Assembly: GCF_000337615.1 (NCBI RefSeq)
Contig: NZ_AOII01000026.1
Coordinates: forward strand, 1,406 to 61,777
Source: Natrinema pallidum DSM 3751
Lineage (GTDB): Archaea; Halobacteriota; Halobacteria; Halobacteriales; Natrialbaceae
Direction: 5' to 3'
Length of the DNA: 60,372 nt
Each line of letters begins with the position of its first letter. The first letter of the stretch is position 1. Positions 2,250 to 60,372 of the stretch are shown here, in pieces. The notes under the pieces were generated by a model that saw only the letters and a program-made list of their open reading frames with translations, ran no database searches and was not told where the DNA came from. Both the position numbers and the translations under genes were made by a program.

Positions 2250-3137
2250 ATGAACGATAGGAGTGCCACGAGTACGGGGTGGTTCGCGGACATCGATCCA
2301 GCGGATGTAGAAGCGACTACAGAGGCTATTCGGGAGAAGACTGCTGAGGAACCTCGAGATTGGCCTGCCGAAGCCGTAGACGCGGGTTTCGCGGACGACG
2401 AAGTCGACTATTACGCCAAACTCCACGAGTCCACGGTCGAATCCACCCGCGAAGCCGTCAGAGAGCGAGAAAAGGCAGATGATCAACAGCTAAAACATAG
2501 TATTCGGGCCATGGACGACTGCAGTCGGACGGCCAACGAACTCGCCGAGCGGCTGGCGGAGTGGGCCGGAACCGTCGACCCCGATGCGGGGACCGGCATC
2601 GAGTACGCCAGAACGCTCGCACGCGGGGAGGCCGACGACGACCTCGCGGAGCCCGCGATCAGGTCGCTCGCCGAGCGCGTCGCCGACCTCGCCGACGAGG
2701 CCGACGAACTCCGGGAGTTCGTCGACCGTCGGACCCCGGCCGTCGCGCCGAACCTCTCGGCGCTGGCCGAGCCGGTCCTCGCGGCTCGGTTGATCGCGCT
2801 TGCCGGCGGCTTAGAGGAACTCGCGAAGAAACCCAGCGGCACGGTACAGGTATTGGGTGCGGAGGACGCCCTGTTCGCCCACCTGCGCGGGCACGCGCCC
2901 TCTCCCAAACACGGGATCATCTACACGCACGACGCGGTTCGGGGTACCCACCCCGAGAATCGCGGCTCGGCGGCGCGCGCAGTGGCCGGCAAACTCTCCA
3001 TCGCCGCTCGTGTCGATCACTACTCGGGCGAGTTGAAGCCCGAACTCGAGGCGGAACTCGCCGAGCGAATCGAGACGATCCAGGCGCGGACGACGGGAGA
3101 CGACGCCGGCAGCGACGGGGGTGCCGCCGATGAGTGA
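2250..3137 (+). CDS. nop5: Nop5, box C/D sRNP core protein
   Basis: This 295-residue protein is the archaeal Nop5/Nop56-58 homologue. It bridges L7Ae, fibrillarin and the guide RNA in box C/D sRNPs, which direct 2'-O-methylation of rRNA and tRNA. The family signature is in the C-terminal Nop domain (about residues 185-270), with the PSPKHGIIYTHDAV segment followed by the conserved region ending in RAVAGKLSIAARVDHYSG. The N-terminal half is acidic and helical, consistent with the fibrillarin-binding and coiled-coil parts. Its stop overlaps the flpA start (ATGAGTGA), so the two partners are translationally coupled, the usual archaeal arrangement. Length is normal for the haloarchaeal family. 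The ATG lies about 28 nt behind a TATA-like element. Confidence 0.95.
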   Translation: MNDRSATSTGWFADIDPADVEATTEAIREKTAEEPRDWPAEAVDAGFADDEVDYYAKLHESTVESTREAVREREKADDQQLKHSIRAMDDCSRTANELAERLAEWAGTVDPDAGTGIEYARTLARGEADDDLAEPAIRSLAERVADLADEADELREFVDRRTPAVAPNLSALAEPVLAARLIALAGGLEELAKKPSGTVQVLGAEDALFAHLRGHAPSPKHGIIYTHDAVRGTHPENRGSAARAVAGKLSIAARVDHYSGELKPELEAELAERIETIQARTTGDDAGSDGGAADE

Positions 3138-3765
3138 GCAGCTTCCGGCGGGGGTCGAGCGCCACGCGTTCGACGGGACCGACCGCCTCGCGACGCGAGG
3201 GGAGCCGGTCTACGGCGAACCGACGGACGGCGAGTGGCGGGCATGGAACCCACACCGGTCGAAGCTCGGCGCGATGCTCGAGGTGGGCATGGACACCGGC
3301 CTCGAAGGCGGCGAGACGGTCCTCTATCTGGGAGCCGCGAGCGGGACGACGGTGAGCCACGTCGCCGATTTCGCGGGCCCGACCTATGCAGTCGAGTTCG
3401 CCGCGCGGCCGGTGCGGGATTTGCTCGAGACCGCGGACTCACGCGAGCGACTCTTTCCGCTCCTGAAGGACGCCCGGAAGCCGGAGACCTACGCCCACAT
3501 CGTCGAGTCGGACGTGGACGTGATCGTGCAGGACGTGGCAACGCGGGGGCAGGCCCGCGTAGCGCTCGAGAACCGGCGGTTCTTGGCCGACGACGGCCGG
3601 CTCCTGTTGGCCGTCAAGGCCCGGAGCGAGGACGTGACGCGGGAGCCTGCTGCTGTGTTCGCGGACGTTCGCGAAGAGCTATCGGAGGGGTACGACATTC
3701 TGGAGACGGAACTACTCGAGAACTACCACGCGGATCATCTCGGCATCGTGGCGCGACCGCGGTGA
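3130..3765 (+). CDS. flpA: Fibrillarin-like rRNA/tRNA 2'-O-methyltransferase
   Basis: This 211-residue protein is the catalytic subunit of the box C/D sRNP and transfers a methyl group from S-adenosylmethionine to the ribose 2'-OH of rRNA and tRNA. The SAM-binding loop is at residues 65-80 (LYLGAASGTTVSHVAD). Further conserved fibrillarin segments are YAVEFAARPVRDLL, DVDVIVQDVA and LLAVKARS. I chose the ATG at 3130, which overlaps the nop5 stop, over the in-frame GTG at 3121 because it gives tight operon coupling and the usual start just before the family's conserved N-terminus. A mobile element begins at the base after its stop codon (3766) without disturbing the reading frame. Confidence 0.96.
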   Translation: MSEQLPAGVERHAFDGTDRLATRGEPVYGEPTDGEWRAWNPHRSKLGAMLEVGMDTGLEGGETVLYLGAASGTTVSHVADFAGPTYAVEFAARPVRDLLETADSRERLFPLLKDARKPETYAHIVESDVDVIVQDVATRGQARVALENRRFLADDGRLLLAVKARSEDVTREPAAVFADVREELSEGYDILETELLENYHADHLGIVARPR

Positions 3766-4300
3766 GTGACGTCCTCCTCGCCGTAAACGGCGAGGCTTCC
3801 CCAGCACGAGGAAACCCGGCCTGTTGCCGAGCAGGTTTCAGGACCCTCTCTCCCGAGGTCGATGGAACGGGTTTCGTTCCTCGCTCGGGAGCGTCCTGTG
3901 GCACCGCCACGTGTGCTCCCATCCGCAAGCGTGTCATTGACGCTTGGTTTCTCAGAGCGTCTCTCACCCAAGCGGTCATGCCTCACGGTATCGACGGTCC
4001 GGTCACACTTAGCCGCCCGTACCTATCAGGTCGGTTTACCGTGCTCGCGAACGACGCGAACCCCGCATCCGATGAACCGTGGTCCATCCGACCGTGGGAA
4101 CCTTCGCCCTGGAAAACCCAGGACGTTGGTTTCAGCGCGTCTCGTACTTCCGCGCAAGTGCCGAAAGCCGACGTAACCCTTGCAAATACGTACGGTACGG
4201 TGTGTACTAAGTATTGGGGTTTCGTACCGACCGGTGACGGTGGTTTACGTTGTCGAGTGATACGATTCACGCCCGCCGTAAACGGCGGGATTCTCTCGCT
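3766..4300 (-). mobile_element. Non-autonomous IS200/IS605-type element (PATE-like)
   Basis: Two near-identical hairpins bound this roughly 0.5 kb non-coding stretch: 3776-3795 (arms CCTCGCCG/CGGCGAGG) and 4272-4289 (arms CCCGCCG/CGGCGGG), both with a TAAA loop. The left boundary reads GTGACGTCCTC, then the hairpin, then GGCTTCC and later GGTTTCAGGA. The same order is found downstream of the tnpB gene at 58.9 kb (GTGACATCCTC, hairpin, GGCTTCC, GGTTTCAGGA). This end is therefore the right end of an IS200/IS605-type element on the minus strand. No transposase or TnpB frame remains inside. The structure fits the small palindrome-associated elements (PATEs) reported in haloarchaea. The outer limit near 4300 is uncertain. 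Confidence 0.7.
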
Positions 4301-4453
4301 GTTTAAAGATAGGGCAAGTGACCGCCACCGACGCGGGGCGGGCGCTGCTGGCACGACGCATCACCCAGCTCGCGGTCGCCGACGACGGGACGCGGATCAT
4401 CTGAGACGGTCACTCGAGACGCACGAACCGGTGGGAAAAACGGACGGTGATCG

Positions 4454-31705: not shown

Positions 31706-31880
31706 GGGGTCGTGGCCAAGCCAGGCATGGCGGCTGACTCCAGAGGCAACGCGCCCGGGACGACACTCCAGACTGATATACTGATCGGGCACCTGATCAG
31801 TGCTCGTGTGATGACCCTCTGGAGTTCCGAGGCGCACCGGAGATATCAGTAGATCGGGGGTTCAAATCCCTCCGACCCCA
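31706..31880 (+). tRNA. tRNA-Trp (CCA anticodon) with intron
   Basis: The acceptor stem GGGGTCG pairs perfectly with CGACCCC, followed by discriminator A at 31880; no CCA is encoded. The T arm is GGGGG-TTCAAAT-CCCTC. The anticodon stem GCTGA/TCAGT encloses loop CTCCAGA, with CCA as anticodon. The gene is interrupted after the anticodon loop by an intron of about 101 nt (approximately 31745-31845), leaving a mature tRNA of 74 nt. The intron carries a box C-like GTGATGA followed by CCCTCTGGAGT, complementary to the anticodon region, and CTGA-type boxes. This matches the known haloarchaeal tRNA-Trp intron that guides 2'-O-methylation of its own precursor through the nop5/flpA machinery. The exact splice points are approximate. 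Confidence 0.95.
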
Positions 31881-58902: not shown

Positions 58903-58968
58903 GTGACATCCTCGCCCGCCGTAAACGGCGGGGCTTCCTACAAGGGAAGCCTCGCGTCGAGGGAGGTT
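58903..58968 (-). mobile_element. Right end of the tnpB element with guide-RNA hairpin
   Basis: Just downstream of the tnpB stop, the plus strand reads GTGACATCCTCG, then the hairpin CCCGCCG-TAAA-CGGCGGG (58915-58932), then GGCTTCC and GGAGGTTTCAGGACTG. This is the typical haloarchaeal IS200/IS605 tnpB right end, from which the RNA that guides TnpB (omega RNA, reRNA) is expected to be made on the minus strand. The guide would be the flanking DNA beyond 58903. The same block occurs at 3766-3850. Confidence 0.75.
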
Positions 58969-60210
58969 TCAGGACTGAAACGCCGCAAGCGTCGTTTGTC
59001 GGGATTGCCGACTCGGCGTGCGGTGTCCTGTGGCCGTGTCACAACGGCTCCCATTCCGTGGCGAGTCATCGCCCGCCGATTTCCAAGGCAGGCTCTCTCC
59101 CCACGGATCAAAGCGACCGGCGATGTTCGCGGCCGCGTTGATATCTGCTTGGTACTCCGTAACCCAACACTCGCTGTTCGTACACTTGAACTCGGCTTGC
59201 GACCCACGAGAACCGATGTGCCCGCACTCGTGGCACGTCTGACTCGTGTAGCGCGGATTCACGAACTCGACCGGGATGCCGGCGTCGAGGGCCTTGTCCT
59301 CAATGCGGTCGGTGAGTCGGGCGAACGCCCACGAGTGCAAGCGTCGGTTCATGTACGTGCCGTAATCAAGGTTCTCGCGGATGTACGAGAGGTCCTCGAG
59401 TACGATCACCGGATCTTCGAAGGACTCGGCGTACTTGACGGCTTCGCGAGACGCTTTCTCGACGATATCGGTCAAGGCGTTCTGGTAGTGTTCGAAACGT
59501 TCGTCCACACGCCACTGCTCGACGTCACGCTCCTGAAGGCGCTTCAGGGTCGTGTACATCTCTTTGCGGAGGTGTCGCGCACGGCCGCCGTCGTAGATGT
59601 ACGGTTGGGTTGGAGTGTCGTTCTGACAGGCACAGCCCGTCAGAAGCTTGGACTCGCCGATATCGAAGCCGATTCGAGTCGGGTCGTCCGGCGTCTCTGG
59701 TTCGGCCACGTCGTACTCGACGGTGACGTGAAGCACCCAGTTCGTTCGGTGCTGTTGCAGTCGGAACTCGCCGACCGACACGTCGCCGTTGAGCAGATCG
59801 AACCACAGCGATTCCTGCTCGGGGTTAATTCGAAGTGGAATCCAGAACGCGTTGCCACGTCCAGCCTGTGGAACGCGCCAACAGAACTCGTACGCACGCT
59901 CGTCGGAGTGATCGATTCGGAAGCCACGGTTCGTGAATCGAACCGGGTGGTCGTCCCCGAGTTCCGACGCGTTGTACGTCCGGCGGAGTTGTGGGACGTA
60001 GCTCTTGAGCGCGTCCTTGGCGTAGGACGTGAGCGTGTACGGCGTGACGATATCGTTGACTGCGTTCTGCGTATCCGCGCCACTCTCGAAGGCATCCTCA
60101 AGGGCACGGCGGTAAGTCGCCACAGTGCGCTCGAGACGTTGCTCTTTGCCCGTAGTGGGTGGCGCGAGAGTAGCTTCGAGCGTTTTCGTGGCGGTAGTTT
60201 CAGCGACCAT
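58969..60210 (-). CDS. tnpB: RNA-guided endonuclease TnpB family protein
   Basis: This 413-residue protein of IS200/IS605-type elements has a RuvC-like nuclease with Asp183 (GFDIGESKLL), Glu272 (IVLEDLSYIRENL) and Asp356 (EYQADINAAANIAGRF). A zinc finger with C326, C329, C343 and C348 lies between them. TnpB cuts DNA using an RNA derived from the element's right end and favours retention of the element; TnpA performs transposition but is not visible here. The ATG at 60210 (MVAETTATKT) is preferred over a longer frame to 60336, which crosses the divergent gene. All catalytic residues are intact, so it may be active. Confidence 0.93.
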   Translation of the reverse strand: MVAETTATKTLEATLAPPTTGKEQRLERTVATYRRALEDAFESGADTQNAVNDIVTPYTLTSYAKDALKSYVPQLRRTYNASELGDDHPVRFTNRGFRIDHSDERAYEFCWRVPQAGRGNAFWIPLRINPEQESLWFDLLNGDVSVGEFRLQQHRTNWVLHVTVEYDVAEPETPDDPTRIGFDIGESKLLTGCACQNDTPTQPYIYDGGRARHLRKEMYTTLKRLQERDVEQWRVDERFEHYQNALTDIVEKASREAVKYAESFEDPVIVLEDLSYIRENLDYGTYMNRRLHSWAFARLTDRIEDKALDAGIPVEFVNPRYTSQTCHECGHIGSRGSQAEFKCTNSECWVTEYQADINAAANIAGRFDPWGESLPWKSAGDDSPRNGSRCDTATGHRTPSRQSRQTTLAAFQS

Positions 60211-60268: not shown

Positions 60269-60372
60269 ATGGGTACAGAAATCAGATTCGAGGTAGACGA
60301 CGAACAGTACGAGCGACTGAAAGCGATCAAAGACAAGCGCGGCTACACTTGGAAGGGGCTGATGCTCGAAGG
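60269..60372 (+). CDS. Small partner gene of tnpB, cut by the window end (RHH-like)
   Basis: This frame starts at ATG 60269 and reads MGTEIRFEVDDEQYERLKAI then KDKRGYTWKGLMLE up to the last base, with no stop. It is divergent to tnpB with 58 bp between starts. Short proteins with this EVDDE-x-Y-x-x-LKAIK opening and W-K-G-L-x-L-E pattern are often found beside haloarchaeal tnpB genes and look like ribbon-helix-helix regulators. It may control tnpB. Only about 34 residues are visible, so the family call is tentative. Confidence 0.6.
   Translation, partial: MGTEIRFEVDDEQYERLKAIKDKRGYTWKGLMLE

Follow-up and report, generated by a model that had tools for sequence, protein, structure and literature searches.

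A TnpB-less IS200/IS605-type element beside flpA in Natrinema pallidum and its structurally conserved TnpB guide-RNA scaffold

Haloarchaea harbor short mobile sequences known as palindrome-associated transposable elements (PATEs), described in Haloquadratum walsbyi (PMC3119063). Like the 543-bp element that is the subject of this report, PATEs are short, lack a transposase, contain palindromes close to their termini, cause no target duplication, and have ends related to those of IS605-type elements; some are IS605 elements that have lost their core (PMC3119063). PATEs have been treated as degenerate transposase-free repeats (PMC3119063), whereas the lineage described here has retained an entire TnpB guide-RNA scaffold whose structure is under constraint. 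The same lineage includes the 488-489 bp PATE of HRTV-DL1 and pR1SE from Halorubrum lacusprofundi, the right half of which is strongly transcribed; a noncoding RNA was proposed by the authors, who drew no connection to the TnpB guide scaffold (PMC10544981).

The RNA predicted from the right end of the 543-bp element resembles the guide RNAs of ISDra2 TnpB (omegaRNA or reRNA; PMC8612924, PMC10097598) and the sotRNAs/omegaRNAs of H. salinarum (PMC12558985), in which a right-end scaffold is likewise followed by a guide derived from the flank. The position of its pseudoknot matches the ISDra2 TnpB structure, with bases just before the guide pairing with an upstream loop (PMC10097598). RNAs of the TnpB-less elements, hereafter mini-elements, differ from both in having no tnpB in cis and in being separate from every TnpB-bearing RNA sampled. 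Guide RNAs without a nuclease gene in cis are reported for IscB, as standalone, trans-acting omegaRNAs. Those RNAs belong to the IscB family of bacteria, whereas the RNA described here is of the TnpB type and lies on an archaeal mobile element.

The element is found in a 60,372-nt stretch of the Natrinema pallidum DSM 3751 genome (contig NZ_AOII01000026.1), referred to below as the window; positions are those of this stretch. It contains neither tnpA nor tnpB, encodes a TnpB guide-RNA structure with compensated pairs, and falls in a mobile clade for which no member with tnpB was found.

Borders, copies, and mobility of the element

Positions 3766-4308 on the minus strand comprise a complete IS200/IS605-derived element (Table 1). 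The conserved right-end terminus, GAGGAYGTCAC on the minus strand, stops exactly at 3766, adjoining the flpA stop codon TGA (3763-3765), and at the left end the target CTAT (ATAG on the plus strand) is followed by CTTTAAACAGCGAGAGAATC. An earlier note on this DNA had held that a right end is kept here without a tnpB, and this is borne out by the hairpin, the terminus, and the absence of any tnpB match inside the element. No transposase gene lies within it, and its open reading frames have no Pfam match, on which ground a small protein gene was rejected as its cargo. As in PATEs, palindromes lie near both termini and there are no terminal inverted repeats.

Table 1. Features of the window discussed in the text
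Feature	Position	Strand	Basis or remark
flpA (fibrillarin-like)	3121..3765	+	stop codon intact, just outside element
Predicted guide, first 20 nt past right end	3746..3765	-	TCACCGCGGTCGCGCCACGA, reverse complement of flpA 3' end
TnpB-less IS200/IS605-type (PATE-like) element, 543 bp	3766..4308	-	left-end CTTTAAACAGCGAG to right-end GAGGACGTCAC
OmegaRNA (TnpB guide-RNA) scaffold, 172 nt modelled	3766..3937	-	R1 model, covariation, fold z-score
Right-end hairpin CCTCGCCGTTTACGGCGAGG	3776..3795	-	two compensated pairs vs sister copies
Helix CUCCCGAG (3884-3891) with CUCGGGAG (3850-3857)	3850..3891	-	two-sided changes in 5/8 pairs, mini lineage
Long-range helix CAGGAC	3893..3898	-	pairs with GUCCUG, 3839-3844
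Pseudoknot strand GUGGCG	3905..3910	-	pairs with CGUCAC, 3766-3771 (right-end terminus)
Left-end palindrome CCCGCCGTTTACGGCGGG	about 4272..4289	-	second near-terminal palindrome
Target-site/TAM tetranucleotide CTAT (plus strand ATAG)	4309..4312	-	CTAT precedes left end in 23/27 mini-elements
Winged-helix-like gene fragment (TDAGRALLARR...), flanks left end	4313..4408	+	gene intact in G013/L030
OmegaRNA scaffold of the window's tnpB element	58903..59067	-	left end beyond window, target TCAT
TnpB, 413 aa	58969..60210	-	Pfam PF07282 E=8.6e-18; RuvC motifs GFDIGE, IVLEDLS, ADINAA present

Three other genomes hold full-length copies (93, 92, and 89% identical) whose flanks are unrelated, which sets both borders at 541-543 bp; one of these copies lies on the Natrinema pellirubrum plasmid pNATPE01. 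Copies with 76-77% identity are carried by three Haladaptatus species (on plasmids), and shorter relatives of 488 bp by the Halorubrum plasmids pR1SE and pR1SE2 and a Halorubrum tailed virus. The N. pellirubrum copy (L094 3001-3542; strain DSM 15624, NC_019967:125717-126258) interrupts a different tnpB at its first RuvC motif, the catalytic IGVDIGER. Joining its flanks (...SGETP to IGVDIGERHIL...) restores one open TnpB frame, which demonstrates exact borders and the lack of a target duplication. Together with the prevalence of CTAT, this frame indicates that insertion takes place 3' of a short, fixed target sequence, which is not duplicated, as is characteristic of PATEs; non-CTAT targets among the 27 mini-element copies are TCAT, CTAC, CTGT, and TGAT. 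An empty site for the flpA-adjacent copy was not found, the nearest relative having 1.4 kb between the two flanks. In the virus (OP630575, L105 1501-1988; L104 602-1089) the mini-element is inserted near the start of a small open reading frame (MT/TMSDPSH...), and an ATG is left directly after the right end.

The lineage has been mobile recently, since two copies at different sites of one genome (G176) are identical over 528 of 528 positions; a copy in another genus matches at 527 of 528. The presence of copies at multiple sites suggests that the element would be mobilised in trans by a Y1 TnpA. None was detected in the window's 99%-complete genome, the same family being found in 5 of 14 control genomes, and Y1 TnpA was present in six of eight genomes tested and absent from that of the window. 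The element therefore probably cannot move in this genome.

The guide-RNA scaffold

As an independent test, the right end was searched with a sequence-only model (R1) built, without structure, from seven right ends of TnpB-bearing elements. R1 finds the right end of the 543-bp element over the full model (59.8 bits, E=2.4e-17), and a weaker homology to the C-terminal coding end of tnpB extends in alignment to about 4015. The 172-nt right-end module folds with z = -3.86 relative to shuffled sequences. Together with the covarying pairs described below, these values show that the hairpin at the right end exceeds chance.

The structure scored was named by hand because that given by RNAalifold on the TnpB-bearing set alone was partly wrong, owing to a one-base shift in the MAFFT alignment. 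It comprises a hairpin GCNC/GNGC, the CAGGAC/GUCCUG and CUCCCGAG/CUCGGGAG helices, the right-end hairpins, and a pseudoknot from the loop of the first hairpin (GUGACA) to the terminal UGUCAC. The pseudoknot, which links an upstream loop to the last six bases of the element (consensus GUGRCR with YGUCAC), covaries, with a two-sided A-U/G-C change in the mini lineage and G-C/U-A in the TnpB-bearing set. Four of the six CAGGAC/GUCCUG pairs are compensated across mini-element and TnpB-bearing RNAs. Over 10 TnpB-less and 5 TnpB-bearing RNAs, 96.4% of cells are paired, 19 of 35 pairs have changed on both sides, and the covariation score is 0.426 against 0.157 for shuffled alignments (0/500 as high) and a maximum of 0.103 for slid ones. 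TnpB-less elements alone (25 distinct) give 97.4% paired cells and a score of 0.226 (shuffled, 0.121; slid maximum, 0.088). Parsimony on the TnpB-less tree, outside the right-end hairpin, counts 15 compensated changes, 18 one-sided changes that still pair, and 17 that break a pair; these 17 inferred pair-breaking changes count against a guide-RNA-only explanation. In the TnpB-less set, only two cells lack pairing of the last six element bases, and the window copy is itself able to form the pairs of the hand-named structure. The RNA thus has two features of omegaRNAs, a conserved scaffold ending at the right end and a pseudoknot between the 3' end and an upstream loop; it lacks a third, an adjacent or overlapping tnpB, none being found in the element or in the 15 genomes checked (matches of at least 160 bits).

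This structure bears on the possibility that mini-elements are plain passengers moved by TnpA in trans, whose ends would be retained for the sake of TnpA while the omegaRNA part, a remnant from the deletion of tnpB, would be under no selection. That account gains some weight from the known origin of transposase-free PATEs, with palindromes near their termini, in IS605-type elements (PMC3119063), from the mini-element hosts without a group TnpB (see below), and from the near-identical copies, which show that spread can be recent. Against it, compensatory changes over 73-96% identity preserve pairing in helices and a pseudoknot as far as 130 nt in from the right end, and the RNA part can be aligned in all mini-elements, whereas the middle of the elements cannot. 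To judge from IS608 and ISDra2, TnpA should need only the hairpins at the ends. An unselected leftover is therefore considered unlikely, and DNA hairpins kept for TnpA were rejected as the whole explanation because helices far inside the element covary.

The sole Rfam match to the element RNA is HgcC (RF00062), an annotated orphan family of noncoding RNAs from hyperthermophilic archaea, to which the likeness is full-length but below threshold. Full-length matches to HgcC lie at window positions 3753-3882 (minus strand) and at L186 2105-2305, L188 1557-1687, and L022 2421-2625; the matches, which include TnpB-bearing RNAs, score 27.9-34.8 bits, the gathering score of the family being 50. The last approximately 20 positions of the HgcC model fall on the guide. 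On this resemblance, HgcC may itself be a TnpB guide RNA; no literature treating HgcC and TnpB together was found in the library searched. No match to a strict RNA motif was obtained in IMG/VR.

A TnpB-less clade in haloarchaea and the transcription of one member

In a tree of 48 RNAs, all 17 from TnpB-less elements (plus one truncated remnant) are split from all 26 TnpB-bearing RNAs with support of 100/98, and the virus and plasmid copies mini_HTV, pR1SE, and pR1SE2 fall within the TnpB-less clade. A model of the TnpB-less set, run on 391 Halobacteria genomes, gave 20 matches of at least 160 bits in 15 genomes, the next match scoring 140 bits. Among haloarchaea, TnpB-less elements with the same RNA are present in many hosts, on plasmids, and in one virus. 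In all 15 genomes the top match (at least 160 bits) has no upstream tnpB, and one is present at 13 of the 15 next loci. Since the best matches of all 15 clade genomes lack tnpB, the structure has been kept while the elements lived without a tnpB of their own; this retention is the main result. It applies to a sample of 391 species, beyond which a tnpB-bearing member could exist. Predicted guides differ at every mini-element site, and a domesticated fixed guide, as in repressor systems, was rejected for this reason.

Transcription of this RNA is supported for one relative. The PATE of HRTV-DL1 is the virus copy in the TnpB-less clade (OP630574, 602-1089), and no other part of the virus is transcribed nearly as strongly as approximately 300 bp in the right half of this 489-bp PATE (PMC10544981). 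The reads were described as antisense to the overlapping ORF3 (PMC10544981). The guide strand is the ORF3 strand, so the reads as reported are opposite to the guide, unless the library strand was inverted, as single-end dUTP sequencing would do; the library kit is named without saying whether it is of this type.

Such strong transcription (PMC10544981) would also be in keeping with a retained RNA that acts without nuclease targeting, either as a decoy that binds TnpB or as a regulatory RNA like the Halobacterium sotRNAs. The sotRNAs of H. salinarum are TnpB-associated RNAs with a reported function (cited in PMC12558985, PMC10544981), and mini-elements reside on a virus and on plasmids, where a decoy could pay off. 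However, near-invariant pairing of the terminal six bases, which adjoin the guide, is what a guide-competent scaffold should show, and guides that differ at every site leave no conserved regulatory target. A role of this kind is judged quite improbable.

Candidate nuclease partners, the flpA target, and homing in trans

The earlier note stated that the TnpB encoded at 58969 has the same scaffold as the 543-bp element. Its RNA does share the fold, but the two scaffolds are 63-64% identical and belong to different RNA clades and target-motif classes. Left-end class tracks the target motif: TCAT for the window tnpB and its relatives, CCAT for the C88 type (in relatives), and CTAT for the class of the 543-bp element. 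Group TnpBs in the window's genome are the intact window copy (TCAT), a broken copy at 94%, and a C88 type at 66%. None of them has a CTAT left end, and the two that are intact belong to other target-motif classes. The further proposal that the RNA serves as a guide in trans is plausible, given an intact scaffold conserved across the TnpB-less lineage, but this particular TnpB falls in the TCAT rather than the CTAT class. In another genome (G006), which also holds a mini-element copy, an autonomous element combines tnpA and tnpB with the left end of the 543-bp element and a CTAT target.

Of the 15 genomes with mini-elements in the survey, 12 also carry other group omegaRNAs, compared with 124 of the remaining 376 (Fisher p=3.5e-4), an association that fits trans use but could also reflect genomes rich in insertion sequences. 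Three mini-carrying genomes, G064 and G120 (both near-complete) and G054 (63% completeness), have no group TnpB (E<=1e-30), indicating that the RNA can survive for at least some time in the absence of a partner.

Within the same element as the window tnpB and divergent from it, positions 60269-60372 (plus strand) hold the start of a small ribbon-helix-helix-like open reading frame (MGTEIRFEVDDEQYERLKAIKDKRGYTWKGLMLE...), possibly a regulator of the tnpB element or an antitoxin-like partner. Another omegaRNA in this genome (L021 1640-1895, contig C14) is split by approximately 90 bp before the right-end hairpin, resembling SMR-A insertions into IS605 palindromes in Haloquadratum. A 58-bp right-end fragment (L023 838-895, contig C45) is 100% identical to the right end of the window tnpB element and has no tnpB nearby.

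A minus-strand RNA running through the right end would, as the earlier note read from the sequence, finish in the reverse complement of the flpA end. That note went on to suggest that flpA alleles lacking the insertion could be cut by the TnpB encoded at 58969, guided in trans by this RNA, and that the element would thereby be maintained in the population. The guide does match the flpA end and an intact TnpB of the same fold is present in the genome; moreover, CTAT would adjoin the target if flpA and the winged-helix fragment were already directly joined in the allele that received the element. Cutting of flpA is nevertheless not supported by the sampled loci. None of the TAM-like tetranucleotides CTAT, TCAT, CCAT, or CTAC lies beside the target in 29 relatives (congeners and other Natrialbaceae) or in 80 named haloarchaeal flpA loci, a set that overlaps the 29. 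Guide and flpA ends differ by 2-7 mismatches in 20 across these two sets, the best target having 2. The proposal is further undercut by the TCAT class of the window TnpB, by the failure to detect a Y1 TnpA in this genome, and by the arrangement in Natrinema gari, where the winged-helix-like gene lies about 1.1-1.4 kb downstream of flpA (in a 91% identical region). It is regarded as very improbable.

With its two flanks apart in N. gari and 1.4 kb missing here, the junction of flpA and guide sits at a rearrangement. Either the deletion came first and the element was then inserted at the junction, the TAM having been present in an allele since lost, or a later deletion brought flpA up to the end of the element and the TAM was never present. 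Either way, no flpA allele that could be targeted is known; an uninserted conspecific allele of the form flpA-TGA-ATAGGGCAAGTG would make targeting of flpA possible. Elsewhere in the window, a CRISPR array (RF01337) at 101-1579, with at least 23 repeats of 30 nt and a period of about 66 nt, lies directly upstream of the nop5/flpA operon, and a tRNA gene at 31706-31880 (plus strand) spans 175 bases and presumably contains an intron.

The explanation that we favor, with moderate confidence, is that the 543-bp element is a non-autonomous IS200/IS605 transposon of the PATE kind that, apart from its ends, retains a TnpB guide RNA as its sole function, and that borrows both TnpA and TnpB and homes in trans. 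We infer loading in trans, cutting, and homing. In this scheme a Y1 TnpA from another element would move the mini-element in trans, and an RNA transcribed from its minus strand would end in about 16-20 nt of right-end flank. A TnpB encoded elsewhere would load this RNA, the resulting ribonucleoprotein would cut the emptied donor or sister site (CTAT target motif plus flank), and repair would copy the mini-element back, which amounts to homing by a borrowed nuclease. The copy beside flpA is probably stranded at present in its own genome, because no Y1 TnpA was detected there, the intact TnpBs belong to other target-motif classes, and none of the flpA loci sampled has a TAM-flanked target.

More tentatively, the mini-elements of haloarchaea, their plasmids, and a virus may constitute a long-lived, horizontally spreading transposon lineage that carries only a guide RNA, is parasitic on the TnpA and TnpB of others, and homes by means of a borrowed nuclease. 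If this is true, a TnpB-type nuclease and its guide RNA can follow separate evolutionary paths on different mobile elements, a separation often invoked as a step in the origin of CRISPR guides, and transposase-free PATEs would gain a mechanism of persistence. Mini-elements would then serve as natural guide-only constructs, with which the role of TnpB in transposon maintenance becomes testable in the presence and absence of a partner.
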